Under the pieces are notes generated by a model that searched no databases, had not been told where the DNA came from, and worked only from the letters and a program-made list of their open reading frames with translations. The translations under genes were made by a program, and so were the position numbers. DNA of 20,850 nt from Tidjanibacter sp. (lineage in GTDB: Bacteria > Bacteroidota > Bacteroidia > Bacteroidales > Rikenellaceae), in contig JAFYRC010000169.1 of the NCBI GenBank assembly GCA_017547065.1, positions 1-20,850 on the forward strand. The letters are read 5' to 3'. This document shows positions 560 through 20,526 of this stretch, one piece after another (position 1 is the stretch's first letter; every line of letters starts with the position of its first letter).

Positions 560-1015
560 ATGGATCATTCAAACACGCACGAAAGTAGCCACGCAGCACA
601 ATTCTGTCGCATTATTGCGGGAAGCGCTCTCAAAGGACTCACCATTACACAGCTCGCCAACGAGTGCGGGCAGAGTCCCACAAAATTCAAACAAGAGTTC
701 AGGAAGATTTTTGGCGACACGCCCCACCATTGGGCCGTACGCAGAAGGCTCGAATTTGCCCAACAGCTGTTGGAAAACACAACACTCCCCGTGAAGGCTA
801 TCGCCCAGCAGGCCGGTTTTAGCACCGCCTCCCACTTCATACGCCTATTCAAGGCCGAGTATGGGCACACCCCAACACACCACCGCAAGTTCTACGGAAA
901 GGGCGACACACAGAAGAGTTGTAGTGCCAATTGCGGATCCTGCCGAGCCACAAGTGGTGAGTGTTGCTGCAACAACATTCGCAATGGTCAATGCCCACGC
1001 CACCACACCCCATAA
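560..1015 (+). CDS. Short AraC-family DNA-binding regulator with cysteine-rich tail
   Basis: This 151-residue protein is little more than an AraC-type DNA-binding domain. The first helix-turn-helix covers about residues 27-62 (LTITQLANECGQSPTKFKQEF, shown here only as its key pattern L-x2-LA-x-x-x-x-S-x2-x-F-x2-x-F). The second covers about 65-112 and has the signature A-Q-LL, V-x-x-IA-x-x-AGF-s-S/T-x-S-H-F-x-R-x-F-K. There is no N-terminal ligand-binding domain, so effector sensing is either absent or placed elsewhere. After the domain comes a tail with seven cysteines (121, 125, 128, 135, 136, 137, 145), which is unusual for the family and could bind metal or react to redox state (inference). 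ATG 560 follows an AGGA at 550-553. The frame is open back to a stop at 476-478 but offers no better start. The gene converges on the CPBP gene with only 36 bases between them. Confidence 0.8.
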   Translation: MDHSNTHESSHAAQFCRIIAGSALKGLTITQLANECGQSPTKFKQEFRKIFGDTPHHWAVRRRLEFAQQLLENTTLPVKAIAQQAGFSTASHFIRLFKAEYGHTPTHHRKFYGKGDTQKSCSANCGSCRATSGECCCNNIRNGQCPRHHTP

Positions 1016-2660: not shown

Positions 2661-4808
<2,148 letters not shown>

Positions 4809-4997: not shown

Positions 4998-6473
4998 TTA
5001 CTTAATCGAACCAGTACCTGCGTTGAAGTTCAAGGTAACGGTCTGACCAGCGGTTACAGCAACACCAGGAAGGTCGCCACCAGTACCACGGTAAACAATC
5101 TTGCCATCAATTACGTTGAACTCGCTGTGCCACCAGTCACCACCAGTGGGAACATACATACGAAGACCGTATGCGTCTTTTGATGCCCCAAGGTCACTTG
5201 CTTTATCAACGGTGATAGTTGCAGTACCATCCTCGTTTACATTGAAATCAGCAGCCTCGCCAGCCCACGACGAACCCGATTTGGAGAAGCAGGGGCCGAT
5301 ACCGTAGATCTTAGCGGGAGCGATGCTGAGTTTAGAAGCCTTCATATCAACGATGATAGTGTAAAGACCAGAAGCTTCAACAACAGCGTTACCATCTTTG
5401 TCGCTACCGAAGCCCTCATTAGTGGTAAGACCACCGAATGCTTTGCTCCAATCGTCTTTGATGTTGATAGAACTAAACTTAACACCTTTGCCACCTTCCA
5501 TGTAGCGAACTGCCCAGAATTTACCAGTCTCGCTGTGTACGGGAGTGAGCGAAACGATACCCTCAGAACCCCAAGTCCAAGCACCGAAAGCGTCACCAGT
5601 CATATACATCTCAGTGGGAAGGTCGAGAGTGCGAGTGCACTCAACCTCGCTAGTGAAAGCATCAGCAACCGAACCGGCTGCGGGTTTCCAAGTAAGTGTC
5701 AAGGCGTAGAAACCTGCTTTGTCAACTGCAATATCGGCACCGGTGTTGGAAAGTTTACCATCGGTCAAACCAAGAGCAACCTCTGCTTTAACGTTGCCAT
5801 CAACGTCGAGGTTAATCTTCCAGCCGTGGCACGAAGCCCATTTAAACTTGCCTCCCTGGCCCATCTCCTGCTCGGTGAGGGTGTAGGTAACGCTACCGTC
5901 AGCGTTAAGAGTCTCCTCGGCCTGGGTGAAGCCCCAACCGTTCATACCACCACGAACACCCCATTTAGCACGCTGAATGATGATCTGGGGATACTCGAGG
6001 TCACCCATAGCGTTGTTGTCGAGTACGATGTGGTACATACCGGTCTCTGCAACCTGCATAGCGGGAGCGTTCTCACCAATAATCATCTTACCGGCAAGAA
6101 TCTTCATGTTTGGGTTGTCTGCGAAGTTCTTGCAGTCGGGATCGTTTGCATCGTAGCCGTAGTTAACCTCTGCCAACTGTGCACCATAGAACACTTTGTT
6201 GCCAGCCGAATTCTCAACGAGCGAGAACTCTTTGTTAGCCTCGAGCCAGATGTATTTCTCATACATACCGGTACGAACCGATTTGGTTACCTCATTCGAA
6301 CCAGCCGACATCTGGTTTACTGCAAGGAACTCCTGAGTACCTACTGCATCGCCATAGATGTAGAAACCATCCAATACAATGTTGATAGGGCCATCATCCT
6401 CGTTGGTATCACCACAAGCGGTGAAACCCATCATCAGTGCCATAGCACCGAACAAATAAAGAAGTTTTTTCAT
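4998..6473 (-). CDS. susE: SusE/SusF-type starch-binding surface lipoprotein
   Basis: This 491-residue lipoprotein has a lipobox ending at C20 (GFTAC), followed by an acidic stretch (GDTNEDD) of the kind associated with surface export in Bacteroidota. Four related beta-sandwich modules can be recognised from their openings: DGFYIYGDAVG (35-45), WGVRGGMNGW (171-180), MYMTGDAFGAW (289-299) and IYGIGPCF (389-396). The TGDAFG-W form is characteristic of the SusE/SusF family (starch-binding modules). Several tryptophans per module (for example W212 and W218, W299 and W301, W403, W447 and W448) could stack on glucose rings, but individual binding sites are not proven here. I chose ATG 6473 because it begins a proper lipoprotein signal peptide; the longer frame from 6590 overlaps susD and has no signal. 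It follows susD by 49 bases. No separate SusF gene is present. Confidence 0.85.
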   Translation of the reverse strand: MKKLLYLFGAMALMMGFTACGDTNEDDGPINIVLDGFYIYGDAVGTQEFLAVNQMSAGSNEVTKSVRTGMYEKYIWLEANKEFSLVENSAGNKVFYGAQLAEVNYGYDANDPDCKNFADNPNMKILAGKMIIGENAPAMQVAETGMYHIVLDNNAMGDLEYPQIIIQRAKWGVRGGMNGWGFTQAEETLNADGSVTYTLTEQEMGQGGKFKWASCHGWKINLDVDGNVKAEVALGLTDGKLSNTGADIAVDKAGFYALTLTWKPAAGSVADAFTSEVECTRTLDLPTEMYMTGDAFGAWTWGSEGIVSLTPVHSETGKFWAVRYMEGGKGVKFSSINIKDDWSKAFGGLTTNEGFGSDKDGNAVVEASGLYTIIVDMKASKLSIAPAKIYGIGPCFSKSGSSWAGEAADFNVNEDGTATITVDKASDLGASKDAYGLRMYVPTGGDWWHSEFNVIDGKIVYRGTGGDLPGVAVTAGQTVTLNFNAGTGSIK

Positions 6474-6522
6474 AATTGTTTGTTTGTAAAAAAGGTTTGT
6501 GTATAGTGTTGTGTTTGTTTGC

Positions 6523-8307
6523 TTACTGAGTAACAGCAGGAGCTTTGATATCCTCATAGCCCTCATTCTGGGTCCAGAGGCGCTTGCCATCCTCGCCGAT
6601 GAGCGATTTCTCCAATACCGAGCGGGGGATGGGGTACCACTTGAGGTAGTCGTTCTTCTTGGCTACATACTGGATATTGCCAAACTCGCCATAGCGGATA
6701 AGGTCACGGCGACGTACCATCTCCCAAGTAAACTCCCTACCACGCTCGTCGAGAATACCTTTCTCAGTGAGCGAGGTCGAGGCCTCGGGATAAGCAGCCT
6801 TGAAGGCGTCAACCGAGCCCATAGCACGTTTGAAGTAGTTCTCAAAGTCGGCTTTGCTTACGCCGTTGATACCGCTCACGCCTGCACCACCGCGCACGAT
6901 TGCCTCCTCCTTCATCCAGAGTACATCAGCATAACGCATCAGCACGAAGTCGTTCTCGCAGTACTTGTAGGTACCGGTCTTGTCAGCCTCCCACTTGTTC
7001 AGACGTGCACCATCGAAGTTGTGGGTATCGTAGGGCCTACCACCCTGCTCCGAAATAGTGGAGCGGATGATGGTGGGCTCTTTGTAGTCCTCGTCGAGGT
7101 ACATAGCGTTCACGTCGCGAGCGGCAATCTGCTCTGCGGTAGCCGAAGCCTTGTAAACGGGACCTACAAACCAACCCCACTCTTTCTTGTCGCCGGTACC
7201 GTTCCTCTCGCTCTCCTTACCCATACCACGAACATCGTTGTCGTTGTAGAGTTTCAAGAAGTCGGGACGAGCGCAGAAGCCATTCCAGGTGTCGAGCACC
7301 ATACCGTAGGCCTGCTGGATACCGTAGTGGTGGGTGTTCATGGTGATACGGAGCTTGTTCGACATCGAGCCATTGCTACGCTCGTCGAAGTCTGCCTGAC
7401 CGTTGTCAACAATCGAGAGAATGTTCTCCTTGCTATTCTCGTTGAAGATGCGGAAGTTGGAGAAATAATTGTTCTCAATGCTGTAAGAGCCAGCCTCGAT
7501 TACTTTGTCGCAGCAACGTACGCAGTTGTCCAAGAACGAACCGCTATACTGCTCGGGAGCCTCCACTTTCTGGAATACATTGTCGGGATTACAGCCATAC
7601 GACTCGGCATTCAGATAGAGACGAGCCAACAGAGCATAGGCAAAACCCTGGGTAGTACGGCCATAGTTGGCAGCACGGTTGTCGTTGGTCACAATAGCCA
7701 TATTGGGGGCGTTGCGCTCCAACACAGCAACCAAGTTCGACCAAGTCTCCCAAGGCTCGTTCATAGGACCAACAACCTCCTCGTATGTCTCGGTGTAGGG
7801 AACACGACCGAAGCACTCAAATAAGAGGTAGAAGTAGTAGGTACGCAGTACCTCAACCTCGCCCACATACTGTGCATAAATCTCCTCGCTCATATTCTCC
7901 TTGCCGAGCTCGAGGGTCTGAAGTACACGGTTACACGAAACGGCACCCGAGATGGTAGTGTTCCAAACATTCTTGATAGCGTCACCACGGAAATCCCAGG
8001 TGTGGTCGTTCTGTTTCATCCAGTAGCCACCGTCGTTCCAGTCGTTACCCTTATTACGGGGTACGCAAAGACCCTCGTCAGCCGAAATGGTCACAAGACC
8101 CCAGTAGCCCCAGTGGTCGTGGATCCATTTCAGGTCGGCATAGCACTGACCAACCAACAGAATAACGTTCTGCTCGTCAGTTACCATATCCTCCACGGTG
8201 GGGTTGCCATAGTTTACCTCATCGAGCAGGCCATCCAGGTTGGAGCACGAGCTCATTGAGCCAATCATTGTGGCAGTAGCTGCCAACATCAAAAGAAACT
8301 TTTTCAT
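6523..8307 (-). CDS. susD: SusD/RagB-type starch-binding outer-membrane lipoprotein
   Basis: This 594-residue lipoprotein has its lipobox at C21 (GSMSSC). It belongs to the SusD/RagB family, the helical lid that covers the SusC barrel and captures oligosaccharides at the cell surface. Typical features are the early D-x-x-W-HDHW-YWG region, the helix with WNTTISGAVSCNRVL, the A-x-LR-YY-x-LL-FG-VPY pattern, and the C-terminal ERG-EFTWEM-RRRDLIR block close to the end, followed by WYPIPRSVLE. The downstream end ties this gene to SusC, whose stop codon is 17 bases upstream, so both are surely cotranscribed. An earlier in-frame ATG at 8319 would add only four residues in front of the MKKFLL signal peptide, and I consider it unlikely. 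Sugar specificity is inferred from the neighbours, not from mapped binding residues. Confidence 0.94.
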   Translation of the reverse strand: MKKFLLMLAATATMIGSMSSCSNLDGLLDEVNYGNPTVEDMVTDEQNVILLVGQCYADLKWIHDHWGYWGLVTISADEGLCVPRNKGNDWNDGGYWMKQNDHTWDFRGDAIKNVWNTTISGAVSCNRVLQTLELGKENMSEEIYAQYVGEVEVLRTYYFYLLFECFGRVPYTETYEEVVGPMNEPWETWSNLVAVLERNAPNMAIVTNDNRAANYGRTTQGFAYALLARLYLNAESYGCNPDNVFQKVEAPEQYSGSFLDNCVRCCDKVIEAGSYSIENNYFSNFRIFNENSKENILSIVDNGQADFDERSNGSMSNKLRITMNTHHYGIQQAYGMVLDTWNGFCARPDFLKLYNDNDVRGMGKESERNGTGDKKEWGWFVGPVYKASATAEQIAARDVNAMYLDEDYKEPTIIRSTISEQGGRPYDTHNFDGARLNKWEADKTGTYKYCENDFVLMRYADVLWMKEEAIVRGGAGVSGINGVSKADFENYFKRAMGSVDAFKAAYPEASTSLTEKGILDERGREFTWEMVRRRDLIRYGEFGNIQYVAKKNDYLKWYPIPRSVLEKSLIGEDGKRLWTQNEGYEDIKAPAVTQ

Positions 8308-8324
8308 AATTCGCAGCATATCTA

Positions 8325-11315
8325 TTAGTTAAACGTAATGTTAATACCAAACAACACAGTTGCAACGGTGGGATAGAAGTCGCAGTAGTCGATACCTGCA
8401 CTCCACACGCTGTTGGTGTCAACCTCGGGATCCTGACCGCTATACTTGGTGATGGTCAACAAGTTCTGGCCGGTGATGTAGAAACGCATCTTCTCGATCG
8501 ACGAGTTCTCGGGAAGGTCGTAGGTGTAACCAATGGTAATGTTGTCGAGTTTGATGTAGGAACCATCCTCCAAGTAGTAGTCCGAGAAGCAAGCCTTGTT
8601 GGTGTAGACTACGTTTGTCCCATTAACATCCTTCATGAAGAGGTTGTCGGCCTGGGAAGGACGGGGACCGTATGCCCAGCGAGTGAGGTTCAACACGTCG
8701 TTACCATAGACACCACGGAAGAAGATGGTAGCGTCGATATTGTTGTAACGAACGGTGTTGTTCCAACCGAAGGTAAACAGAGGCTGTGCATTACCGATAA
8801 CCTGGCGGTAGGCATCAGCAGTGGTGTTCTCATCCACAACACCACCGGCAGGGGTCTCGTAGTACCATTTACCGGTCTGCTCGAAGTATTTCTTGTGGAG
8901 TTTGAAACCATAGAAAGCACCCACGCTCTCACCCTCGATAAGAATCTGGGTGGAGGTGTTCTGAATACCGTTCTCACCAACCCAACCCGACGAGGTCTCC
9001 TTGTAGTTGAAGCCCTTGCTGGGGTCGGAGAGTTTGGTGATGTAGTTGCGGTTGAATGCGATGGTGGGGGTCGATGTCCAAGTCAGGTTCTTGCTGCGAA
9101 TAATGTCAGCATTGAGAGCCAACTCTACACCATAGCTATCCATCTGACCTGCGTTGGCAAGCAGAGTAGGATACTGATAGGGAGGAGTGGGTACCTCGTA
9201 GTCCCACAAAAGGTCGCGGGTCTGACGATAGTAAACATCGAAGCTACCATACAGGCGGTTGTCCATAACCGAATAGTCAACACCGAGGTTGTACTCATAC
9301 TTCTTCTCCCAACGGAGGTCGGGGTTTACATTCTGGCTTACACCATAGGTGTAAACATAAGCGCCGTTGTACCAGAAGGTACCACCATTGGAGAGCATTG
9401 CCACCGAACGGAGGTCGCTGGCGAGGTTGTTACCAGTAACACCCCAACCCAAACGAACTTTCAGGTCGTTGATAGCGTCGTTGTTCTGCATGAACTCCTC
9501 CTGGTTGAGGCGCCAACCGAACGAAACTGCGGGGAACCAACCCCACTTATGGTTAGCACCGAAACGGCTCGAACCCTCACGACGAATCGAAGCTGAAACG
9601 AGGTACTTGCCATCGAACGAGTAATTTACACGACCGAAGGCAGCAGCCAACACGTTGGAGTTACGGTAGGACGAAGCGGTCAGGTAGGTCTTCTCTGCAT
9701 CACCGTTACCAATCTGGTAGTATTTCATGCTGGCAGTGGGGAAACCTTTGTTCGACACGCTCATACCGTCATACATAAAGTTTTGGTAGGAAACACCAGC
9801 AACTGCGGTCAAGCTGTGACCACCCGACGACCAAGCGTAGTCGAGAGTTGCCTCAAAGAGTTTGCTACGGCTCTTGTCGGTGCTACGACCGGCCTTACCC
9901 GAGCCCTCGATATCGGTGTTGATAACACCATTGTACCAGTAGGAAGTGTTGTCACCCTCCTCAACTGCACCAAAGGCGCTGAGTTTCAAACCGGGCAAGA
10001 GGTTGTAAGAAGCCTTCACTGAACCACGGAAGAAGTTGCCATCCTGGTAGCTCTCCCTGTTGTTCATATTCTCCACGGGGTTGGTCAAGCCGGTACCCTG
10101 GGGCTGATAGTAACCATTCTTCTGGCTATTGTCGTAGATGGGATAGGTGGGGTTCAGGATTGCAGCCTGCTTGAAGTCACCACAGAAGTAGTCGTTGCGG
10201 TAGTCCATATACGAAAGGTCGTACTGCAACTCTAATTTACCATTGAGGGCTTTCTGCGAAGCAGCAATTTTGGCCATTACCTCCTCACGGTTGGAGGTCT
10301 TTGCAATACCCTGTGCATCTTTGTAGGCCACCGAAGCACGGTAGTTGAAGTTGCTTGCCGAGCCGGTGATTGCCACATTGTGGTTCTGGGTGGTTGCAAC
10401 GTCGCGGCAAAGAGCGTCCATCCAATCGGTCAACTCCACCTCGCCAGCGGCATTCTCGATGATGGTGGGTTTGATAAGACCACCGGTGGTCTGCTCGAGG
10501 TTCACAAACTCCTCGGGAGTTGCCATACCCATATCGCCATTGCGTACCGAAGCCGAAACATAGCCCGAGTACTCAACCGAGGTTTTAGCCTCGTTGGAGA
10601 AGTTCTCGCCACGTTTGGTGGTGATGATGATTACACCATTGGTACCACGAGTACCATAGATTGCAGCTGCCGAACCGTCCTTCAACACGTCCATCGAAGC
10701 AATCTCATCGTTGGAGATGTTGTCGATGCTGCTCACGGGCACACCATCAACGATGAACAGAGGCGAAGTGCCAGCACCCTTATCGAGGGTGGAGAAACCA
10801 CGAATCTGCATACTGTAACCGGTGCTGGTGGGGTCCGAAGAGGTCTTGATAATGTTCAGACCTGCAACCTTACCCTGCAACATACCAACGGGGTTGGTCT
10901 TCACACCCTGGTTGAAGTCCTCCGACTTGATCGAAGCAACCGAACCGGTAACCTCTTTTTTCTTCTGCGAGCCATAACCCACCATCACAATCTCCTCAAT
11001 CTGCTCTGCGATCTCACTCATCACAAAGTTGATTGTGGTACTTTTTGCTTCGGGATCGTAAATCTCTGTGTAACCCATACACTCAACAAGGAGGGTTGCT
11101 GCAGCATCCACTTTGATGGTATAAGCACCATCAACGCCGGTAACTGTTCCGAGGCCACTCTTCATGTCCATCACTGTTGCACCGATGATGGCCTCGCCTT
11201 TGGCATCCTTCACCACACCCGACACCGAGAGGGTCTGTGCCGAAGCGGCCAGACTCACGAGGGTCAAAGCAAGTGTCAGAAGGAGGCTCTTAAAAACCTG
11301 TAAAAGTTTCAACAT
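8325..11315 (-). CDS. susC: SusC-type TonB-dependent oligosaccharide transporter
   Basis: This 996-residue outer-membrane transporter begins with a signal peptide (1-26, ending ASAQ). A carboxypeptidase-D-like beta domain follows (about 29-100, VSGVVKDAKGEAIIGATV). Then come the TonB-box region EEIVMVGYGSQKK (107-119) and the plug domain to about 236, with the hallmark DVLKDGSAAAIYGTRG at 209-224. The remainder is a 22-strand barrel that ends in the expected aromatic-terminated strand (GINITFN). It should import maltooligosaccharides using TonB/ExbBD energy supplied from elsewhere. It is first in a transcript with susD and susE. A promoter candidate, a shared AT-rich element and a small palindrome lie in the 202-base gap upstream. 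Length and layout are ordinary for SusC of starch systems. Confidence 0.96.
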   Translation of the reverse strand: MLKLLQVFKSLLLTLALTLVSLAASAQTLSVSGVVKDAKGEAIIGATVMDMKSGLGTVTGVDGAYTIKVDAAATLLVECMGYTEIYDPEAKSTTINFVMSEIAEQIEEIVMVGYGSQKKKEVTGSVASIKSEDFNQGVKTNPVGMLQGKVAGLNIIKTSSDPTSTGYSMQIRGFSTLDKGAGTSPLFIVDGVPVSSIDNISNDEIASMDVLKDGSAAAIYGTRGTNGVIIITTKRGENFSNEAKTSVEYSGYVSASVRNGDMGMATPEEFVNLEQTTGGLIKPTIIENAAGEVELTDWMDALCRDVATTQNHNVAITGSASNFNYRASVAYKDAQGIAKTSNREEVMAKIAASQKALNGKLELQYDLSYMDYRNDYFCGDFKQAAILNPTYPIYDNSQKNGYYQPQGTGLTNPVENMNNRESYQDGNFFRGSVKASYNLLPGLKLSAFGAVEEGDNTSYWYNGVINTDIEGSGKAGRSTDKSRSKLFEATLDYAWSSGGHSLTAVAGVSYQNFMYDGMSVSNKGFPTASMKYYQIGNGDAEKTYLTASSYRNSNVLAAAFGRVNYSFDGKYLVSASIRREGSSRFGANHKWGWFPAVSFGWRLNQEEFMQNNDAINDLKVRLGWGVTGNNLASDLRSVAMLSNGGTFWYNGAYVYTYGVSQNVNPDLRWEKKYEYNLGVDYSVMDNRLYGSFDVYYRQTRDLLWDYEVPTPPYQYPTLLANAGQMDSYGVELALNADIIRSKNLTWTSTPTIAFNRNYITKLSDPSKGFNYKETSSGWVGENGIQNTSTQILIEGESVGAFYGFKLHKKYFEQTGKWYYETPAGGVVDENTTADAYRQVIGNAQPLFTFGWNNTVRYNNIDATIFFRGVYGNDVLNLTRWAYGPRPSQADNLFMKDVNGTNVVYTNKACFSDYYLEDGSYIKLDNITIGYTYDLPENSSIEKMRFYITGQNLLTITKYSGQDPEVDTNSVWSAGIDYCDFYPTVATVLFGINITFN

Positions 11316-11517: not shown

Positions 11518-13821
11518 TTATCGTCCCGAAGCCTCAATCTTCGACTTGATTGTGGCGTTCAATTCGCCCTCCTCGAGGAGCTGTTCCAGCGAGAGGTGCA
11601 TTCTGTAACGCCAGTAGTGATTGGGGATTGCAGGGATGTTGATACGCTCACTATCGATGTCTGCCTTACGCAACCTCTCGTCCATCGAGATCCAATCCTG
11701 CAAAGGAAGGATGGTGAGAATTGCGGGCGAGCAGAGGTGGTTATTCACGATGGTTGCACACAACTCACCGCCCAACTCCTCGGGAGCGATGCCCTGCTTC
11801 CAGAGAATCTCGTTGTAGTACTTCTGCGAGGTTGCCCTATCCTCCTTCCACCAGCCACGGATGGTGCTGGTGTCGTGCGAACCGGTGGTGCACACACAAG
11901 CATAGGGGTAGCGGTTTGTGTAGCCAAACTCGATGGTGGGGTCTTTGGGCATCCTCTGTACCTCCAATGAGAGGATACCGAGGTTTTGCATCACGGGACC
12001 CACGCAGTCGGGTACCATACCGAGGTCCTCACCGCAGCACATCATGTTGGTTGCGTCCACCAAAGCGGGCAATTTTTCCATTGCCAATGCGCCCCAGAAA
12101 TCGTTGTGACGACGGTAGAAGAAGTCGTTGTAGAGTTCGTTGAACCTCTCCTTCTCCCAATCCGACAACCACTCATAGCTCTTGGTCTGCTGTGCAGCAA
12201 TACGGGGGTGGAAGTGACCGGGCTTACGGGGATCCTCAATAAATAGCACCTCACCGGTGAGGCCATACAGGGCCCTCATAGCCTTCTCGTTTACGCCGTC
12301 CAGAGCCTCGCGAATCTTACGCTGGGTGTCGTAGTCGGGTTTGAGCGAATAGTATCCATTGTCCTTGTAGTCCAAGTAGGGGGTCCAATCCTCCTCACCG
12401 AAATACTCGTGGAGGTAGTTGTGGTGAATCTGGGGCAACAAGTAGCGGTCCCTGTTCATAGGCATACCCCTCTGTGCCAACTCATCGTAGCTGAAAGGCA
12501 TGGCGGGGTTGAAGTAGCCCAAGAGGCCAACCACCGAATCCATAGGGATCTCCCAGATGCGGAAGAAGCCAAGGATGTGGTCGATACGGTAAAGGTCGAA
12601 GTAGTCTGCCATCTTCTCAAAGCGGCGTTTCCACCAAGCGTAGCCGTCCTGAGCCATAACCTCCCAGTTGTAGGTGGGGAAGCCCCAGTTCTGACCATCG
12701 GCCGAGAAATCATCTGGTGGCGCACCCGCCTGGCAATTCATATTGAAGAGCCTTGCGTCGCTCCAAGCCTCCACAGAGTCGCGCGAGATACCGATTGGAA
12801 TATCGCCTTTGAGCACCACGCCCAACGAGCGGCAGTAGGCCACACTATCTTTGAGCTGGCGGTCGAGCTGGAACTGCACCCAATAGTAGAGGGCAACCTT
12901 GCTGTAATCCTCAAAACTCTCGCTTGTGAGCTTCTCAACGAGCTTCTTGCTGTACTTTTTCTCACGGCCCCACATCTCAAAGTAGGCGGTCTGGTATTTA
13001 TCCCTCAGGTAGCAGAAGGCAGCATAGTCCTTGAGCCAGTCCTTGTTAGCCTCGAAGAAGGCAGCGAAGGCTTTGGTTTTGAGGGTACGCTTACCGCTGC
13101 GAGCAAACTCCTTGCGGATGAAATCCCACTTAATAGCGCTCACAGCATCGTAGTCCACAAATTCGAGGGCGTTCACCTTCTCAATCTCCTCACCCTTGGC
13201 ACCGAGCTCTACAATCGAGAGGTACATGGGGTTGAGTGCGAAGATGGAGATGGAGCTGTAAGGATATGAATCCTTCCAAGTGCGGGTCATTGTGGTGTCA
13301 TTGATGGGGAGGATCTGGATAATCTTCTGGCCGGTAGCCACAGCCCAATCACCCATCTTCTTCAAGTCCACAAAGTCACCAATACCCTGGCTCTGGTTGC
13401 TACGCAACGAGAATACGGGGATTGCCACACCGGCACCCTTCCAGCCAAACTGGCCACGGAAGTGGGCGTCGATGTGCTCGCTACCCTGCTCGCCACAGAG
13501 GAAGTAGCGACGGTTGTAGCCCTCCTCCCACCATACATTTCCACTCTCCTTAACGATGAATTTGTACTCAAACTCGTCGCCAAGACTCTTCATGTCAAGT
13601 GCGATGGTCCAATAGGGGTACGACTCTATGGTCAAAGGCAGAGCCTTCTCCACGTCCCAGCAACCGAGAGCCTCCACACTGCCCACAATGTAGAGCCTCT
13701 GTGTGGGCCTCTGTATGGGAGCGTTCACTCTGAACGAGAGGATCTGCTTTGCCCTACACGCCTGTGCCTTCTCCGCGGGGAAGAAGGTGGCAAAGGGCGA
13801 AGTTTCATAAATGTTCTTCAT
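11518..13821 (-). CDS. malQ: 4-alpha-glucanotransferase (GH77) with N-terminal CBM20
   Basis: This 767-residue enzyme has no signal peptide and so should be cytoplasmic. Residues about 25-120 are a CBM20 starch-binding domain: LYIVGSVEALGCW with W55, YPYW with W71, feYKFIV, and W97-W98-E-x-G-x-NRR. The GH77 domain follows, with KGDIPIG (338-344), GAPPDDFS, WGFPTYNW and the nucleophile segment YRIDHILGFFR (D414). The acid/base is in CCGEDLG (E598) and the third acidic residue in GSHDTST (D650). It transfers maltosyl or longer chains between maltodextrins, releasing glucose. The architecture resembles plant DPE2, but as I recall that type and many Bacteroides homologues carry two CBM20 domains and are near 890 residues; here only one is present. 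It follows susA by 33 bases and is probably the last gene of the MFS transcript. Confidence 0.93.
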   Translation of the reverse strand: MKNIYETSPFATFFPAEKAQACRAKQILSFRVNAPIQRPTQRLYIVGSVEALGCWDVEKALPLTIESYPYWTIALDMKSLGDEFEYKFIVKESGNVWWEEGYNRRYFLCGEQGSEHIDAHFRGQFGWKGAGVAIPVFSLRSNQSQGIGDFVDLKKMGDWAVATGQKIIQILPINDTTMTRTWKDSYPYSSISIFALNPMYLSIVELGAKGEEIEKVNALEFVDYDAVSAIKWDFIRKEFARSGKRTLKTKAFAAFFEANKDWLKDYAAFCYLRDKYQTAYFEMWGREKKYSKKLVEKLTSESFEDYSKVALYYWVQFQLDRQLKDSVAYCRSLGVVLKGDIPIGISRDSVEAWSDARLFNMNCQAGAPPDDFSADGQNWGFPTYNWEVMAQDGYAWWKRRFEKMADYFDLYRIDHILGFFRIWEIPMDSVVGLLGYFNPAMPFSYDELAQRGMPMNRDRYLLPQIHHNYLHEYFGEEDWTPYLDYKDNGYYSLKPDYDTQRKIREALDGVNEKAMRALYGLTGEVLFIEDPRKPGHFHPRIAAQQTKSYEWLSDWEKERFNELYNDFFYRRHNDFWGALAMEKLPALVDATNMMCCGEDLGMVPDCVGPVMQNLGILSLEVQRMPKDPTIEFGYTNRYPYACVCTTGSHDTSTIRGWWKEDRATSQKYYNEILWKQGIAPEELGGELCATIVNNHLCSPAILTILPLQDWISMDERLRKADIDSERINIPAIPNHYWRYRMHLSLEQLLEEGELNATIKSKIEASGR

Positions 13822-13854: not shown

Positions 13855-15693
13855 TTACTTTACAAACTCTATAACGTCGCAACCATAGGCCTCAACCTCC
13901 TCCGAGCCTGAAGCGGTTACGCTCTTGCCGGTGAGGATGCTGCGACCCACCATACCTGCGGGAATAACCTCCTCATAGTCACTCCAAGTGAGGGGTCGGC
14001 CCTCGCCTGCAAAGTTGGTGATGGTCAACACAACCTTCTCGTCATTGTAGCGAGCGAAAACATAGAGGTTGTCGGTACGGTAGAACTGGGTGAGCTTACC
14101 GCTCTGCACCACGGGCTCCGAAGTGCGATAGCGGAGCAGCGTGCGGGTGTGCTCAAAGGCTGCCTGCTCGTCGGCAGTACGGCCCTCGGCGGTAAACTTA
14201 TTGTTCACGTCGCCCTTCCAGCCACCCTCAAACTCCTTGCGCGAGCCACCGTGGCCCATCGACATATCGCTCGAACGCATCATAATCTCGGTGCCATAAA
14301 GCAATTGAGGCACACCACGGGTCATCGAGATGATTGCCATACCGATTTTGTACTTCCTGAGGTCGCCCTCGATGGTATCAGCAAAACGCTCGATATCGTG
14401 GTTATCCAAGAAGGTCAAGAGCGTGTTGGGGTTGCCGTAAAGAAAATCCTGCACGAGCGAAGTGTAGACACCGTGACCGCCCCACATCCAGCCGTCGGGC
14501 TGTTTGGAAAGGCCCTGAGAGATCTTCTCTTGCAGGGGGAAGTCCATAACCGAAGGCAGGCCACTCGAGTATCCATCGCGGTTGTTGCTGGCACCCTCCC
14601 AGTAGGCACAAATGGCAGGAACGGCATTCCAGCACTCACCCACAATATTGAGGTTGGGGTACTCGTTGAGAATTGCACGGGTCCAGCGAGCCATGGTCCA
14701 CTTCTCGTTGTAGGGGAAGGTATCCACCCTCAGACCATCCAGGTCGGCCCACTCGATCCACCAACAATAGAGCTGGCAGAAATAGTTGAACACGAGAGGA
14801 TTCTCCAAGTTCATGTCGGGCATTGAGTAGTCAAACCAACCCTCCTCCATCATTTTATGATCGCGGGTAGAGCGGTTTACGGGGTCGGCCTGCATCATCC
14901 AACCGTGGTTGGTGATGAGGGGCTTGTCGCCATTGTGTACCCAGTCGCTCGAAGGGAAGTCGCCTGCCCACCAGTGAGCCGTACCGCAGTGGTTTGTTAC
15001 CACGTCGAAAATCATCTTGATACCCCTCTTGTGGCCCTCGGCTACGAGCTCCTTGTAAAGTTCGTTGGAGCCATAACGGGGGTCGATGTGGTAGTAGTCA
15101 GAGCAGGAGTAGCCGTGGTAGGACGCAAAACCCTCGTTGTCGAGCGTGAGGGGAGTGTTCCAAATGGCAGTTACACCCAGGTCGGCCAAGTAGTCGAGGT
15201 GGTCGATAATACCCTGAATGTCGCCACCGTGACGGCCAAAGGGCTCCTGACGGTTGCAAGGCTCGGCACACTCAGCAACGGTGTCGTTGCTCTCGTCGCC
15301 GTTGGCAAACCTATCGGGCATAATCAGGTATACAACATCCTTTGCACTAAAACTCTCCCTTTCGGCCGAGCCCTCACGACGGTTGTCGATGTGGTATGCA
15401 AAGGTGTGTTTCTTACGACCCTTGGTAAGTGTAATATTCCAATCTCCTGCCTTCTTCACATCCAGGTCGAGGAAGAGGTAGTTGGGATTGTCGGTGCGGA
15501 TGATGCTTTTGAGGGTAAGGCCCTCGCCATCCACACTCACCTCCGAGCCGGCAATCTGCTCGCCGTGGAGCATAAGCTGGAGGGGAGTTTTCATATCGGT
15601 AAACCACGAAATGGGCTCCACGCGATCAACCTTCTGTGCACTCAGCGAGAGTGCACAGAGGGCTGTCATAAGGGTTACGAAAATTCGTTTCAT
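13855..15693 (-). CDS. susA: Periplasmic GH13 neopullulanase, SusA type
   Basis: This 612-residue enzyme has a signal peptidase I leader (1-19, ending LSLSA-QK) and no lipobox, placing it in the periplasm. An N-terminal beta domain (about 22-105) is of the cyclomaltodextrinase type. The GH13 barrel shows MPDRFANGD (125-133), region I DVVTNH (230-235), region II GLRVDTFPY with nucleophile D324, region III NIVGECW with acid E353, and region IV FLDNHD with D433. The size agrees with SusA of B. thetaiotaomicron (about 617 residues), which hydrolyses maltooligosaccharides and pullulan in the periplasm. It lies between the surface amylase (25 bases upstream) and malQ (33 bases downstream) in one transcript. 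Being in the same transcript as the MFS carrier and malQ, rather than next to susB as in the classical order, is a rearrangement. Confidence 0.93.
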   Translation of the reverse strand: MKRIFVTLMTALCALSLSAQKVDRVEPISWFTDMKTPLQLMLHGEQIAGSEVSVDGEGLTLKSIIRTDNPNYLFLDLDVKKAGDWNITLTKGRKKHTFAYHIDNRREGSAERESFSAKDVVYLIMPDRFANGDESNDTVAECAEPCNRQEPFGRHGGDIQGIIDHLDYLADLGVTAIWNTPLTLDNEGFASYHGYSCSDYYHIDPRYGSNELYKELVAEGHKRGIKMIFDVVTNHCGTAHWWAGDFPSSDWVHNGDKPLITNHGWMMQADPVNRSTRDHKMMEEGWFDYSMPDMNLENPLVFNYFCQLYCWWIEWADLDGLRVDTFPYNEKWTMARWTRAILNEYPNLNIVGECWNAVPAICAYWEGASNNRDGYSSGLPSVMDFPLQEKISQGLSKQPDGWMWGGHGVYTSLVQDFLYGNPNTLLTFLDNHDIERFADTIEGDLRKYKIGMAIISMTRGVPQLLYGTEIMMRSSDMSMGHGGSRKEFEGGWKGDVNNKFTAEGRTADEQAAFEHTRTLLRYRTSEPVVQSGKLTQFYRTDNLYVFARYNDEKVVLTITNFAGEGRPLTWSDYEEVIPAGMVGRSILTGKSVTASGSEEVEAYGCDVIEFVK

Positions 15694-15718: not shown

Positions 15719-18700
15719 TTATTTAATCTTCACAAGAACGATGTATTCGTGTGCTCCGAGAGTTACGTTATAAGTAGAGCCAAGAGTTACTTTCTGACCG
15801 GTAATAAGGTTGGTCCACTCGCCCGTATCGGGAACATTCACGGTAGTCGAAGCGCTTGCGGTGCTCTGGTTGGCCACCACGATAACACCACCGTGATTAT
15901 TGCTCAACACGAGAGTCTTTTTACCCATCGAGCTGTCGCCCACACTCCAAGTCTTGCGCTCCTTGTCGCCAGAATCGGACGAGAAAATCTGGGGATTATC
16001 GGTACGGAACGAGATAATCTTGCAGAGGTTCTCATAGAGGGCAACACGGTTGGTGTGCTTATCGTAGCCGAGCTTCCAAGGGTTGGGTTTGCGGTGGGTA
16101 CGATACTCGTCGCCGCTACCAAGCACACCCTGGTCGTTCATGTTGATGGAGTAGTCGTAGGCCAACTCACCAAACTGCCACATCATCTTGGGATAGGGTG
16201 CAAGGTATTCCAGAGCATAAAGACCGGTCAACTGGTTTACAACATTCTGCGAAATGTAGTTGTTTTTGAGAGGAGTCTGACCGTAGGTCTTAATCTTGTA
16301 AGCAACCCTCTCCTCGTCGTGGCTCTCTGCAAAGCCCACGCGACCATAGGCACTCACGCCCGAGAAGTTGCTCTTGTCGTTGCCGGTCCAACCCATACCG
16401 CTCTCGCACGAGGCGTTGTTGGCATTACGCCAAAGCATAATATTCTTGTAAGCTGCAAGCTCATTCTCCTCGGCGCCATCGCAGAAGTGCTCAAAGATAA
16501 TGTAAGCATCCTCCGACACCTCACGGATTGCGTCAGCATAGCCCTTCAAGAAACCGATACGCTGCGACGAGTAGCCACTTGCATCGTAGTTGCTAGGGTT
16601 CTGAACGAAGCCCTTGGTAAGGTCGAAACGGTAACCATCAATATTGTACTCTTTGAGCCAGAACTGCAACACCTCATTGATGTAGGAGCGAGTCTTGTGG
16701 TAGGTGTGGTTCAGGTCGTGGTATACACTCCAATTGTGGGGAGCGTCCACGTTGAAGAATGGGTTGTCCGAAGCGGTCTTGTTTGCCGACGAGTTCCACC
16801 ACATCTTTGCCCAGGGGAACTGACCCGTGGTGTGGTTGAACACAACGTCCAAAATCACTGCGATACCCCTCTTGTGGCACTCATCCACAAACCTCTTATA
16901 CTCATCCTTGGGACCATAGGCCTTATCGGGAGCAAAGTAGAAACAGGGGTTGTAGCCCCACGAGTCGTTGCCGTCAAACTCCTGAACGGGCAACAGCTCG
17001 ATGGCATTCACGCCAAGTTTATCGAGGTAGTCGAGTTTCTCGATGGCTGCACGGAGAGTACCCTCCTCGGTAAAGTCACGCAGGAGGAGCTCGTAGATTA
17101 CCAGCGAGTTGTTGTTGGGACGCTTAAAGTTGGTCACCTGCCAGTTATACTGTTTTGTCGAGGTGGTGAACACCGAAACAATGTCGGTAGTCTCCGCAGG
17201 GAAGGGTTTCAAGTTGGGATAGATCTCGGTAGGAACGCCGTTTACCTGGTTGATCCACTTGTCGTTCCAGGGGTCGAGAATCTTCTCGCAGTAGGGGTCG
17301 CCCACCTTAACCTTACCATCCACAAGGTACTGGTAGCCATACTCGGTCTCGGCCGACAAACCACTAACGGTAGTCCAGAAGTAGTCACCATCCTTGTGCA
17401 TCATAAAGGCATTCGAGGGTGCATATTCATTGAAGTCACCGAGCAGAACAATCTGCTGTTTACCGGGAGCGAAGAGCACGAAGGTTGCCTCCTCGCCACT
17501 CACGGTAACACCATCTTTTGCACCTGCGGGACGTGCAAACTGTTTGGTCTCGCCCAGAGCAGCCACCGATACAGAGGTGTAGGTGTGCTCCGCTTTGTCG
17601 TTGGTTGCGGTTGCACCAAACACCACATCGCAGGGCTCAGTGAAGGTATAGTCGTAGTTAATCTCTCCGTTGGTGGAGGTCGAAACCTCCTGACCATTCA
17701 TTTCGAGCGAGAGGTTGGTGGAGTTCTGTGCAACAACCCTAACGCTCACCTTGTCGCCAACCTTGTAGAGGTCGCCGTGGGTGGGCGAGATGAACGACAC
17801 AGCAAGAGCATCGGCATCCACGAGGTCAACGAAGATGTCGCTACCGTTGTTCTTAATCTCGGGGGAGCCGTTAGCGCCACGGAATACAAATGCAAGCTGG
17901 AGAATCTCCTCGCCGGCAGGCACACCGTAGAACACCCTTGCGCCATAGGGGATAACCATTGCATAGATACCATTGCCAACGTGAGTGAGTTTGCAATCGT
18001 CGGCGTTCACGCTCCAATCGTGCTTAACATACTTCCAGTCGCCACCGCTGGTGCTCTTGTTGGTGATCACACCTGTGTGAGCATAGAGAGCTGCACCTGC
18101 TTTGAGGTCGGTACCGTTGGTGTTAACCACCACAACGATATCGTCAGTGGTGTCGGAGATAATCTCAGGAAGGGTTGCAATCAAGGGCCACTGAAGAGTG
18201 GGGTCTACATCGTCAATGGAGTAGCTATCCTTGATGATAACATCGTTGTCGATGCGGTCAAACACCATGTCCTCATTCTCCACAACCCAGTCGCTGATGG
18301 TGGGAGTAAACTGAGCATTGACACTCTCTTTGTCAAGTTTGAGGTCGAGGGTGTAAGCCATACCCGACTTAAAGTTGGTGGGAGACATCTCAAACTGGAA
18401 ACGCTTGCCCGAGGCTGTCATCACCGTGATTGTGGTGTTGGCAGCATGCTGGGGAGCAACGATGAGTGCATATCCAGTCTTGCTACCCAATGAAATAGAT
18501 GCAGGAGTAAAGTCTGCTACGGTGGTATTCGTCACAATCTCTTTCTCGCTATACTTGTAGGTTGCGCCATCAGCCAGATTCGACACGCTCACCGACTCGA
18601 TAACCTCGCCACTTGTGGTGTCGAAGAGCATAACGAGTTTCGAGAAGAGGTGCCTAAAAGGAAGGTGCACGGCCTCTTTGGTGGGCTTCGACGAAGCAAA

Positions 18701-19138
18701 TGCAAACATCAAGTCCGAAGCCTTGTAGGCCTTCTCGGTGCTCTGGTCAACGTTAAGTTTCACCGAATAGCCGTTCTCTGCAGAGTAGTATCCCCTCGAG
18801 AAGTAGGGCGAGTAGGCGATAAACTGAGCCTCAACCTCGGCGTCGCTATGCCAAGACCTGGGCTTCGAAGAGGTGAAAGCACCGTTGGTGTAGGAGAATT
18901 TGGTGTTGTCATAGACAACCTCTGTGGGGGTTACAATGTGAATACCAATTGCATCGCCCTCCTCAAAAGAGGTGTCGGTTGCCCTTGCGCTGGTGTCGAA
19001 CACCTCGATAGATGCTGTAATGGAGATTGTTGCACCATTAAGATTGTCGTCAACCAGTTCGTCGCAAGATGTCATGCCCACAGTTGCCAAGAGCAACAGG
19101 GCCATAATCTTCATCGAACCGAAAAATGTCTTTTTCAT
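15719..19138 (-). CDS. Surface lipoprotein GH13 alpha-amylase with fimbrillin-like N-terminal domain
   Basis: This 1139-residue lipoprotein has its lipobox at C25 (GMTSC) followed by acidic DELVDD, compatible with cell-surface export. Residues about 34-285 look like a fimbrillin (Mfa-like) domain: SARATDTSFEEGDAIGI (50-66), FIAYSPY (106-112), LPFRHLFSKLVM (159-170), and the end block NFKSGMAYTLDLKL followed by ISDWVVENED. Residues about 315-530 are beta-rich and unassigned (possibly a DUF4961-like module plus an Ig-like one). About 545-635 resembles CBM48 (FVLFAPGKQQIVLLGDFN). The GH13 barrel spans about 675-1050 with region I DVVFNH (764-769), II GYRFDL (D839), III IIFEHF (E883) and IV ESHDEE (D941), then a C-terminal beta domain. 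All three catalytic acids are present. It takes the place of SusG as the starch-cutting surface enzyme, though its architecture is different. It lies 47 bases after the MFS gene. Confidence 0.88.
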   Translation of the reverse strand: MKKTFFGSMKIMALLLLATVGMTSCDELVDDNLNGATISITASIEVFDTSARATDTSFEEGDAIGIHIVTPTEVVYDNTKFSYTNGAFTSSKPRSWHSDAEVEAQFIAYSPYFSRGYYSAENGYSVKLNVDQSTEKAYKASDLMFAFASSKPTKEAVHLPFRHLFSKLVMLFDTTSGEVIESVSVSNLADGATYKYSEKEIVTNTTVADFTPASISLGSKTGYALIVAPQHAANTTITVMTASGKRFQFEMSPTNFKSGMAYTLDLKLDKESVNAQFTPTISDWVVENEDMVFDRIDNDVIIKDSYSIDDVDPTLQWPLIATLPEIISDTTDDIVVVVNTNGTDLKAGAALYAHTGVITNKSTSGGDWKYVKHDWSVNADDCKLTHVGNGIYAMVIPYGARVFYGVPAGEEILQLAFVFRGANGSPEIKNNGSDIFVDLVDADALAVSFISPTHGDLYKVGDKVSVRVVAQNSTNLSLEMNGQEVSTSTNGEINYDYTFTEPCDVVFGATATNDKAEHTYTSVSVAALGETKQFARPAGAKDGVTVSGEEATFVLFAPGKQQIVLLGDFNEYAPSNAFMMHKDGDYFWTTVSGLSAETEYGYQYLVDGKVKVGDPYCEKILDPWNDKWINQVNGVPTEIYPNLKPFPAETTDIVSVFTTSTKQYNWQVTNFKRPNNNSLVIYELLLRDFTEEGTLRAAIEKLDYLDKLGVNAIELLPVQEFDGNDSWGYNPCFYFAPDKAYGPKDEYKRFVDECHKRGIAVILDVVFNHTTGQFPWAKMWWNSSANKTASDNPFFNVDAPHNWSVYHDLNHTYHKTRSYINEVLQFWLKEYNIDGYRFDLTKGFVQNPSNYDASGYSSQRIGFLKGYADAIREVSEDAYIIFEHFCDGAEENELAAYKNIMLWRNANNASCESGMGWTGNDKSNFSGVSAYGRVGFAESHDEERVAYKIKTYGQTPLKNNYISQNVVNQLTGLYALEYLAPYPKMMWQFGELAYDYSINMNDQGVLGSGDEYRTHRKPNPWKLGYDKHTNRVALYENLCKIISFRTDNPQIFSSDSGDKERKTWSVGDSSMGKKTLVLSNNHGGVIVVANQSTASASTTVNVPDTGEWTNLITGQKVTLGSTYNVTLGAHEYIVLVKIK

Positions 19139-19185: not shown

Positions 19186-20526
19186 TTATGCGGTTTTTTG
19201 TTCGGTCTTGTCCTCCACCAGTTTCACCGCCAGTGCACCCAACACAAGCAGCACTCCCGCTACGACGAACATATTAACCTGCACTCCACCCACAAGTTTG
19301 AGTATGGCACCACCACACAAGGCAGCCACGATTTGGGGCAAGCAGATGGCGCAGTTGAACAAGCCCATATAGGTACCCAAGTGGTCGCCAGAGAGCGAGT
19401 TGGTAAAGAGGGTGAAGGGCAGAGCCAACATTGCAGCCCAAGCCACACCTATCATCAAATAGGAGAGAATGAGCAGATATTGATTGTGTATGAAGAATAC
19501 GGACACGAAGCCCAGCGCACCAATAAGCAGGCTTGTGGAATATGCCACTTTGAGTCTCCTGAATTTGGGAATAACAAGTGCCCACAGCACAGCACCAATC
19601 GATTGTACGCCCATCAGTACGCCACCCCAATCGGCAGCCTTCTGGTAGTCACGCATCTTGGCATAGTCGGCAGCCGAGCAATCTACACCAAAGGCGGTAT
19701 CAGCCACGGCGGCAGGGTTGTAGGTCCACATATACATAAACGCAGCCCAACAGAAGAACTGCACCAAACCCACCGTCCAAAATGTCTTTGGAGCATTTTT
19801 GAGCAGGGTGAAAACATTATTCGAACTCTTCTCCTTTGGTTTGGAGGTGTCAATACCGTGATATTCGGCATACTCCTTGGGAGGCATCTCTTTCACCTTT
19901 AAGACGGTCAACATCACGCACAACACCATCAGTGCAGCGCCAAGATAGAACGACCACTTCACACTGTCGGGCACTTCTCCCTCAGGAGCCTCGCTGGAAA
20001 TTCCCACCAAAGCAAAAATGAAGGGGAATAAAAAACCCAGCACAGCACCTGCATTGCAGAGGAACGATTGAATGGAAAAAGCCTTTGCCTTCTGCTTCTC
20101 ATTGACCATATCGCCCACCATCATTTTGAAGGGCTGCATACCCATATTGAGCGAGGTGTCAAGCAGCATTAACGATGCGGCACCAAAGATCATTGCTCCG
20201 CCCATCGTCAAACCCAAACTACCCGCATTGGGGAAGAGGCACATAACGGCCACCGCAATGATGGTTCCTACCAGTAGGTAGGGAATACGGCGTCCCAAGC
20301 GGCACCAAGTTTTGTCGCTGAGTGAACCCACAATGGGTTGAACAATCATTCCCATCAGCGGGGGAAGAATCCAAAAGTAACTAAGGTCGTGTGGGTCGGC
20401 ACCAAGGGTTGCAAAGATGCGTGAAGTGTTAGCACTCTGCAAAGAGAAGGCTGCCTGCACTCCAAAGAATCCAAAGGAGAGCATCCACAGTTGTTTGAGC
20501 GAAAGATTTGGTTTAGTATTTCCCAT
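19186..20526 (-). CDS. MFS sugar transporter, SLC45/GPH-like, probable maltose importer
   Basis: This 446-residue inner-membrane protein has about twelve hydrophobic segments. The loop after the second helix reads GSLSDKTWCRLGRRIPY (67-83), the signature of SLC45/sucrose-proton symporters and related GPH-type carriers (G-x-x-SD-x-x-x-x-x-x-GRRRPY). A cytoplasmic loop with PKEYAEYHGI lies near residue 220, in the middle of the protein. It should take maltose, glucose or short maltodextrins into the cytoplasm with protons (substrate inferred from the adjoining amylase, susA and malQ genes). The first ATG at 20526 fits the NLSLKQLWMLSFGFFGVQ start common in these proteins. It heads the transcript, with a 234-base divergent gap upstream that holds an AT-rich element also found before susC. 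I saw no convincing -33/-7 pair for it. Confidence 0.88.
   Translation of the reverse strand: MGNTKPNLSLKQLWMLSFGFFGVQAAFSLQSANTSRIFATLGADPHDLSYFWILPPLMGMIVQPIVGSLSDKTWCRLGRRIPYLLVGTIIAVAVMCLFPNAGSLGLTMGGAMIFGAASLMLLDTSLNMGMQPFKMMVGDMVNEKQKAKAFSIQSFLCNAGAVLGFLFPFIFALVGISSEAPEGEVPDSVKWSFYLGAALMVLCVMLTVLKVKEMPPKEYAEYHGIDTSKPKEKSSNNVFTLLKNAPKTFWTVGLVQFFCWAAFMYMWTYNPAAVADTAFGVDCSAADYAKMRDYQKAADWGGVLMGVQSIGAVLWALVIPKFRRLKVAYSTSLLIGALGFVSVFFIHNQYLLILSYLMIGVAWAAMLALPFTLFTNSLSGDHLGTYMGLFNCAICLPQIVAALCGGAILKLVGGVQVNMFVVAGVLLVLGALAVKLVEDKTEQKTA

Follow-up and report, generated by a model that had tools for sequence, protein, structure and literature searches.

An open reading frame (ORF) at positions 15719-19138 on the reverse strand of a 20,850-nucleotide stretch of Tidjanibacter sp. 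DNA (assembly GCA_017547065.1, contig JAFYRC010000169.1; the whole stretch is referred to below as the window) encodes a lipoprotein of 1139 amino acids, made up of a fimbrillin-like domain, a CBM98-related domain, an immunoglobulin (Ig)-like stretch, CBM48 and a GH13 alpha-amylase. Pfam and structure modelling support a complete fimbrillin-like fold fused directly to the GH13 lipoprotein of a Sus locus. The fold, the architecture, the locus and, among relatives, the exchange and loss of the domain are observed at the level of sequence. With moderate confidence we read the domain as a folded, exchangeable surface spacer in a Sus alpha-amylase, where it would replace the membrane-proximal linker.

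Architecture of the fused amylase

The fimbrillin-like domain occupies approximately residues 32-286 (18281-19045; all features of the gene lie on the reverse strand), as judged by Pfam, the structure model and structural matches in the PDB. Pfam family Mfa_like_1 (PF13149) matches residues 52-284 (18287-18985) with 132.7 bits against a cut-off of 27 and an E-value of 3e-38, the match running over profile positions 2-246 of 246. The model of the region has a FimA-like fold and was matched to fimbrillin structures in the PDB. The original prediction, made from the letters alone, had noted marks of this fold at about residues 34-285, directly behind the lipidated cysteine and ahead of beta modules and GH13, and had proposed that a structure prediction be compared with FimA, Mfa1 and BACOVA structures. 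That comparison gave a fimbrillin fold, the Pfam match and the model bear out the marks, and the order of the parts agrees with Pfam, the alignment and the model.

The whole gene was delineated from the ORF translation, Pfam, an alignment of 31 proteins and a full-length structure model. It opens with a predicted signal peptide and lipobox ending at Cys25 (residues 1-25, 19064-19138), a cysteine that is invariant across the 31 aligned proteins. The acidic DELVDD which follows (19046-19063) resembles the export signal of Bacteroidetes surface lipoproteins (PMC5080379, excerpt), and all 20 fused proteins have three to six acidic residues at +1 to +12 after the cysteine. Behind the fimbrillin-like domain, the alignment defines a linker (residues 287-324, 18167-18280) that is better conserved than the domain itself, with a mean pairwise identity of 66% over residues 286-325 in the 20 fused proteins. 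The CBM98-related, DUF4961-like domain comes next (residues 325-445, 17804-18166). A profile of these residues and ten relatives matches residues 60-132 of BoGH13ASus (8DGE), ie part of the domain, with an E-value of 1e-7. The Ig-like stretch (Big_7, residues 447-500, 17639-17800) scores 16.3 bits, below the cut-off of 24.1, and has strands in the model; CBM48 (residues 543-624, 17267-17512) is above its Pfam cut-off with an E-value of 3.3e-6. The GH13 catalytic domain extends over approximately residues 673-1045 (16004-17122), Pfam matching 673-888 and the end having been set by eye from the model. Residues D839, E883 and D941, which we take to be the GH13 catalytic residues, are invariant in the 31 aligned proteins. 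Weak Pfam matches and strands in the model mark a C-terminal beta domain at about residues 1050-1139 (15722-15991). A 914-amino-acid open frame lies antisense to the gene (window 15749-18493, forward strand), together with further long antisense frames, which are likely an effect of codon use.

The best PDB sequence match of the enzyme part, by phmmer, was RmGH13_47A of Rhodothermus marinus (8XX9; E = 9.8e-126, residues 537-1118), the second was BoGH13ASus (8DGE; E = 1.6e-107, residues 560-1132), and the following group reached 7e-32. When the full-length model (predicted local distance difference test, pLDDT, 78; predicted template modelling score, pTM, 0.62) was compared by Foldseek, BoGH13ASus chains came first and then RmGH13_47A. 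Because its closest sequence relatives are GH13_47 enzymes, the protein is classed as a GH13_47 Sus amylase of the BoGH13ASus kind, with predicted activity and a predicted surface location. BoGH13ASus, also named BoSusG, is placed in subfamily 47 in the excerpt available of PMC11633381.

Exchange, loss and distribution of the domain

Averaged over all pairs of the 20 fused proteins, identity amounts to 46% for the fimbrillin domain, 65% across residues 326-535 and 79% for the CBM48 part (residues 536-660), with 76% for the catalytic part. Between proteins P0016 and P0017, identity is 98% for residues 300-1139 and 88% for the initial 40 residues but 38% for residues 40-285, the change being sharp at both edges of the fimbrillin domain. 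P0014 and P0018, both on NCBI contigs longer than 100 kb, are 89% identical on the enzyme side versus 46% in the fimbrillin domain. The fimbrillin tree pairs P0016 with P0018 and P0017 with P0014; the enzyme tree pairs P0016 with P0017 and P0014 with P0018. Approximately unbiased (AU) tests reject P0016+P0017 (p = 1e-55) and P0014+P0018 (p = 7e-4) on the fimbrillin data, and P0016+P0018 on the enzyme data (p = 6e-70); the groups were chosen after the identity table, and the p-values are therefore not those of groups set in advance. P0021 combines fimbrillin and middle parts of the window's clade with a catalytic part from the other lineage.

P0019 and P0020, which carry no fimbrillin domain, nest within the fused clade of a 49-row enzyme tree (clade 98, inner forks 93, unstarred). 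That tree was made by a 'quick' method with support from the Shimodaira-Hasegawa-like approximate likelihood ratio test (SH-aLRT) only, and P0001 was left out. Since both proteins lie within the fused clade yet are without the domain, its loss is the simplest reading of their sequences; P0019 retains a tail that, by eye, resembles the end of a fimbrillin domain. In sequence, the domain thus behaves as a cassette, exchanged and apparently lost independently of the enzyme.

Protein homologues were searched for over a set of 5.8 billion proteins. The same fusion had been expected to be worth seeking in other genomes, and PF13149 joined to GH13 was indeed found in at least 19 protein clusters among the best 120 of 398 matches of the window query; a profile built from the 19 recovered the same 19 among the best 120 of 142. 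The fimbrillin region alone returned ten proteins, namely seven of these clusters, one CotH fusion and two others, one without a further precomputed domain and one distant protein. At the level of the family, 68 of 120 genomes match the fimbrillin region, in four cases (the window's included) within an amylase frame of 1140-1152 amino acids. An orthologous amylase is present in 11 of the 23 genomes of the genus, with the fimbrillin domain in four and without it in seven. Loci L099, L100 and L101, from Tidjanibacter metagenome-assembled genomes of deer, yak and goat hindgut, have the same fusion. The amylase ORF could be read in 61 of 66 loci, and more than 300 residues precede the first CBM98-related motif in seven of them. 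In the non-fused lipoprotein homologues that were read, the cysteine is joined to the CBM98-related domain by a short linker, often rich in proline, glycine or acidic residues. Several unfused amylases (L122, L128, L132, L134 and P0022-P0032) have extra C-terminal CBM98/DUF4961-like repeats.

In Alistipes and related amylases (P0045, P0057, L143, L144, L151 and L153), some 270 N-terminal residues make up a diverged domain, fimbrillin-like by eye. Those that were searched gave no Pfam fimbrillin or PDB match, and the profile comparison was weak (probability 80%, 85 columns); a second, independent fimbrillin-like fusion is possible only. A single enzyme-tree clade of all fused rows, the Alistipes type included, was rejected (p = 4e-8). 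One contig encodes two amylases, L151 and L148, of which one has the diverged domain and the other lacks it.

Relatives of the fimbrillin domain precede CotH kinase, DUF5689, DUF5017 and other parts. The window genome has 11 matches to PF13149, ten of them in frames other than the amylase; one of the ten frames has DUF5017 above its cut-off and another GLUG just below, while four run off the 3' end of a contig and one off the 5' end. L020, also in this genome, matches PF13149 in the genome search, but a scan of its protein at E 0.05 gave no Pfam family. Throughout the genus, 76 of 138 PF13149 matches fall in open frames that are at least 450 amino acids long and 50 in frames of 300-399 amino acids, the size of a free pilin. 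The same fimbrillin type is fused to CotH kinase (PF08757) in L065 (7810-10032, reverse strand) and P0121, and in another related genome (L071) a fimbrillin domain stands in front of DUF5689. The closest paralogue in the window genome (G000), L015 (contig C20, 306-2354, reverse strand), has the same fimbrillin type at 37% identity, followed by a glycine-rich linker and repeats which by eye resemble starch-binding modules, with no further Pfam match; elsewhere in the genus there are similar genes (L057, L058, L062, L063 and L064). L016 (contig C82, 2-2767, forward strand) joins a fimbrillin-like domain to a part that by eye looks like a heparinase or polysaccharide lyase (only DUF4962, E = 0.012).

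The Sus locus and candidate roles

The amylase gene stands in a Sus starch locus whose other members, all on the reverse strand, were assigned by Pfam. They are an MFS (major facilitator superfamily) sugar transporter (19186-20526), a second GH13 enzyme of the cyclomaltodextrinase/neopullulanase type (13855-15693), a GH77 4-alpha-glucanotransferase with CBM20 (11518-13821), a SusC-type TonB-dependent transporter (8325-11315), a SusD-type lipoprotein (6523-8319), a SusE/SusF-type lipoprotein (4998-6476, its start being approximate inside the longer ORF 4998-6590) and a SusB-type GH97 (2661-4808). An ORF at window 560-1015 on the forward strand resembles, by eye, an AraC-type regulator with a cysteine-rich tail.

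Eight loci were compared, four with fused amylases (the window, L099, L100 and L101) and four with unfused ones (L122, L124, L132 and L134). In all eight, the genes run in the order MFS, amylase, second GH13, GH77, SusC. Two types of SusC are present, 35-42% identical to one another, and each is found with fused and with unfused amylases; the SusC proteins of L099 (fused) and L124 (unfused) are 95% identical. The fusion is therefore not tied to the SusC partner. Docking of the amylase to SusC/SusD through the domain, one of the roles first suggested, would suit proteins of one locus and, by inference, one membrane surface, but the absence of a link between fusion state and SusC type in these loci disfavours it, and we consider it very improbable.

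The second GH13 and GH77 are approximately 79-93% identical to those of the window throughout the compared loci; SusD and SusE are 40-82% identical to the window's in the four of seven loci where a match was found. The Sus locus is mosaic, with SusC types varying across species and GH77 and the second GH13 conserved. A further reading is that variation is itself the function, ie that the domain is a hypervariable outer coat whose swaps by recombination would let a conserved enzyme escape phages or antibodies. The sharp boundaries of the P0016/P0017 exchange, the conflicting trees and the divergence of SusC, and of SusD and SusE where matched, beside the better conserved enzymes are all consistent with this. 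Escape from phages or antibodies is an attractive reason for the exchange; the exchange of a tolerated spacer would, however, give the same picture, and we rate variation as the function in its own right as rather unlikely.

Docking to pili had been proposed as well. As a working pilin the domain would be cut after R52, its N-terminal strand would leave, a donor strand would fill the groove, and the amylase would ride on or cap a type V pilus. The structure model has an N-terminal strand (residues 40-44, 19007-19021) where prepilins have the strand that they lose on maturation, and R52-A53 (18980-18985), in a loop modelled with low confidence, lies where pilins have their maturation site. This strand is included when the domain is aligned to the FimA prepilins 6JZK and 6JZJ or to the Mfa1 entry 5NF3, and the alignments to pilus FimA (6KMF), Mfa4 (5DHM) and Mfa1 (5NF2) start after it, at residues 52-53. 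R/K-ATDT is present in all seven aligned fimbrillin domains, the window's among them, and FimA, Mfa1, Mfa3 and Mfa4 are cleaved after arginine according to excerpts of PMC5954841 and PMC8313007. Position 52 is basic, however, in 13 of the 20 fused proteins, seven being without a basic residue by column count in the alignment, and the domain in the window has no free C-terminal donor strand, as about 850 residues of other domains come after it. The genus has four fused genomes, the window's (91% complete), G076, G086 and G096, with completeness of 82-95%. No match to the Mfa2 pilus anchor or to P_gingi_FimA was found in the window genome, and Mfa2 gave no match in three of the four, G096 having one; P_gingi_FimA has matches above cut-off in G076 and G086. 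A gingipain-family peptidase likewise gave no match in the window genome, in a search that lacked a positive control as none of 14 control genomes matched either. Pilus anchor and pilin genes are not alongside the amylase, the window holding the Sus locus. On balance pilus docking is disfavoured, with the P_gingi_FimA matches in two of four genomes and the incompleteness of the assemblies still on its side, and a working pilin is in our judgement decidedly unlikely.

An adhesin for starch, for another glycan or for a host or plant surface is a further candidate. Cell adhesion protein is a frequent title of solved fimbrillin structures, and the repeats fused to the L015 paralogue resemble starch-binding modules by eye. 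The tryptophans W96 and W284 are fully conserved in the fused amylases, but they are conserved too in fimbrillin domains on unrelated modules, and no amylase-specific aromatic platform was found among the conserved alignment columns examined. A mean identity of 46% and repeated exchange are also at odds with one conserved ligand site. The starch-grain adhesin of the original prediction is not supported by these data, and an adhesin of any of these kinds seems unlikely.

A spacer, also among the roles first proposed, is the best supported of them, given the short linker in unfused homologues and the apparent loss and exchange of the domain without the enzyme. In a Sus alpha-amylase of the BoGH13ASus kind, a complete fimbrillin-like domain would have replaced the membrane-proximal linker. 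The lipid on Cys25 would anchor the amylase in the outer membrane, the acidic export signal would direct it outside, and the fimbrillin domain would act as a rigid folded spacer lifting the starch-binding modules and the GH13 site off the surface. It would be tolerated as an exchangeable outer shell, which relatives appear to swap or lose with the enzyme unchanged; the variation may be caused by phage, immune or competitor pressure, or by simple tolerance.

Three points weigh against the spacer. R52-A53 lies at the pilin cut position, and the basic residue found there in 13 of 20 proteins is unneeded by a pure spacer. A short linker seems sufficient for most relatives, and a spacer of 250 residues therefore needs a further reason. 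Finally, P0016 and P0017, with 10 and 30 member sequences respectively, were assembled from metagenomes, and their swap is known from protein sequences.

More broadly, and as a tentative suggestion only, pilin-fold domains could be interchangeable N-terminal cassettes on surface enzymes of gut Bacteroidota, recombination varying the outer face of the amylase much as a fimbrial antigen varies under pressure from phages or immunity, and the kept strand and R/K52 could allow release from the anchor by a protease. The fimbrillin fold is here separated from pilus building and serves a nutrient-acquisition enzyme as a module. Its exchange raises the question of why a Sus enzyme should swap its outer part and keep its catalytic one, and the independence of fusion state from SusC type is relevant to how surface amylases cooperate with SusCD. 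No description of the fusion or of the cassette exchange was found, by title or start of abstract, in the open-access literature; fold and enzyme are both of known kinds, and as far as these searches go their fusion and the exchange are apparently undescribed there.

Comparison with known systems

The original prediction took SusG of B. thetaiotaomicron as comparator, but among solved Bacteroides enzymes the nearest to the window protein is BoGH13ASus. SusG is, as predicted for the window protein, an extracellular GH13 amylase of a Sus system, but the excerpt of PMC11633381 assigns it to subfamily 36 and places a CBM58 within its catalytic domain. BoGH13ASus of Bacteroides ovatus (8DGE/8DL1/8DL2) is, like the window protein, a Sus amylase with CBM98, CBM48 and GH13; the same excerpt describes it with these three parts and without a fimbrillin domain. 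The solved construct of RmGH13_47A consists of the CBM48-A-B-C domains only.

On the fimbrillin side, FimA, Mfa1, Mfa3 and Mfa4 of Porphyromonas gingivalis have the fold in common with the window domain, at lower Z scores (8-13). In common with these pilins, the window domain has an N-terminal strand of prepilin type, and the position that corresponds to their maturation site is basic. The P. gingivalis proteins are gingipain-processed pilus subunits, whereas in the window protein an enzyme comes after the fimbrillin domain. BACOVA_04980 (3UFI) and BACUNI_00621 (4K4K) are FimA-like as well, their solved chains, 297 and 282 residues long, being without an attached enzyme.

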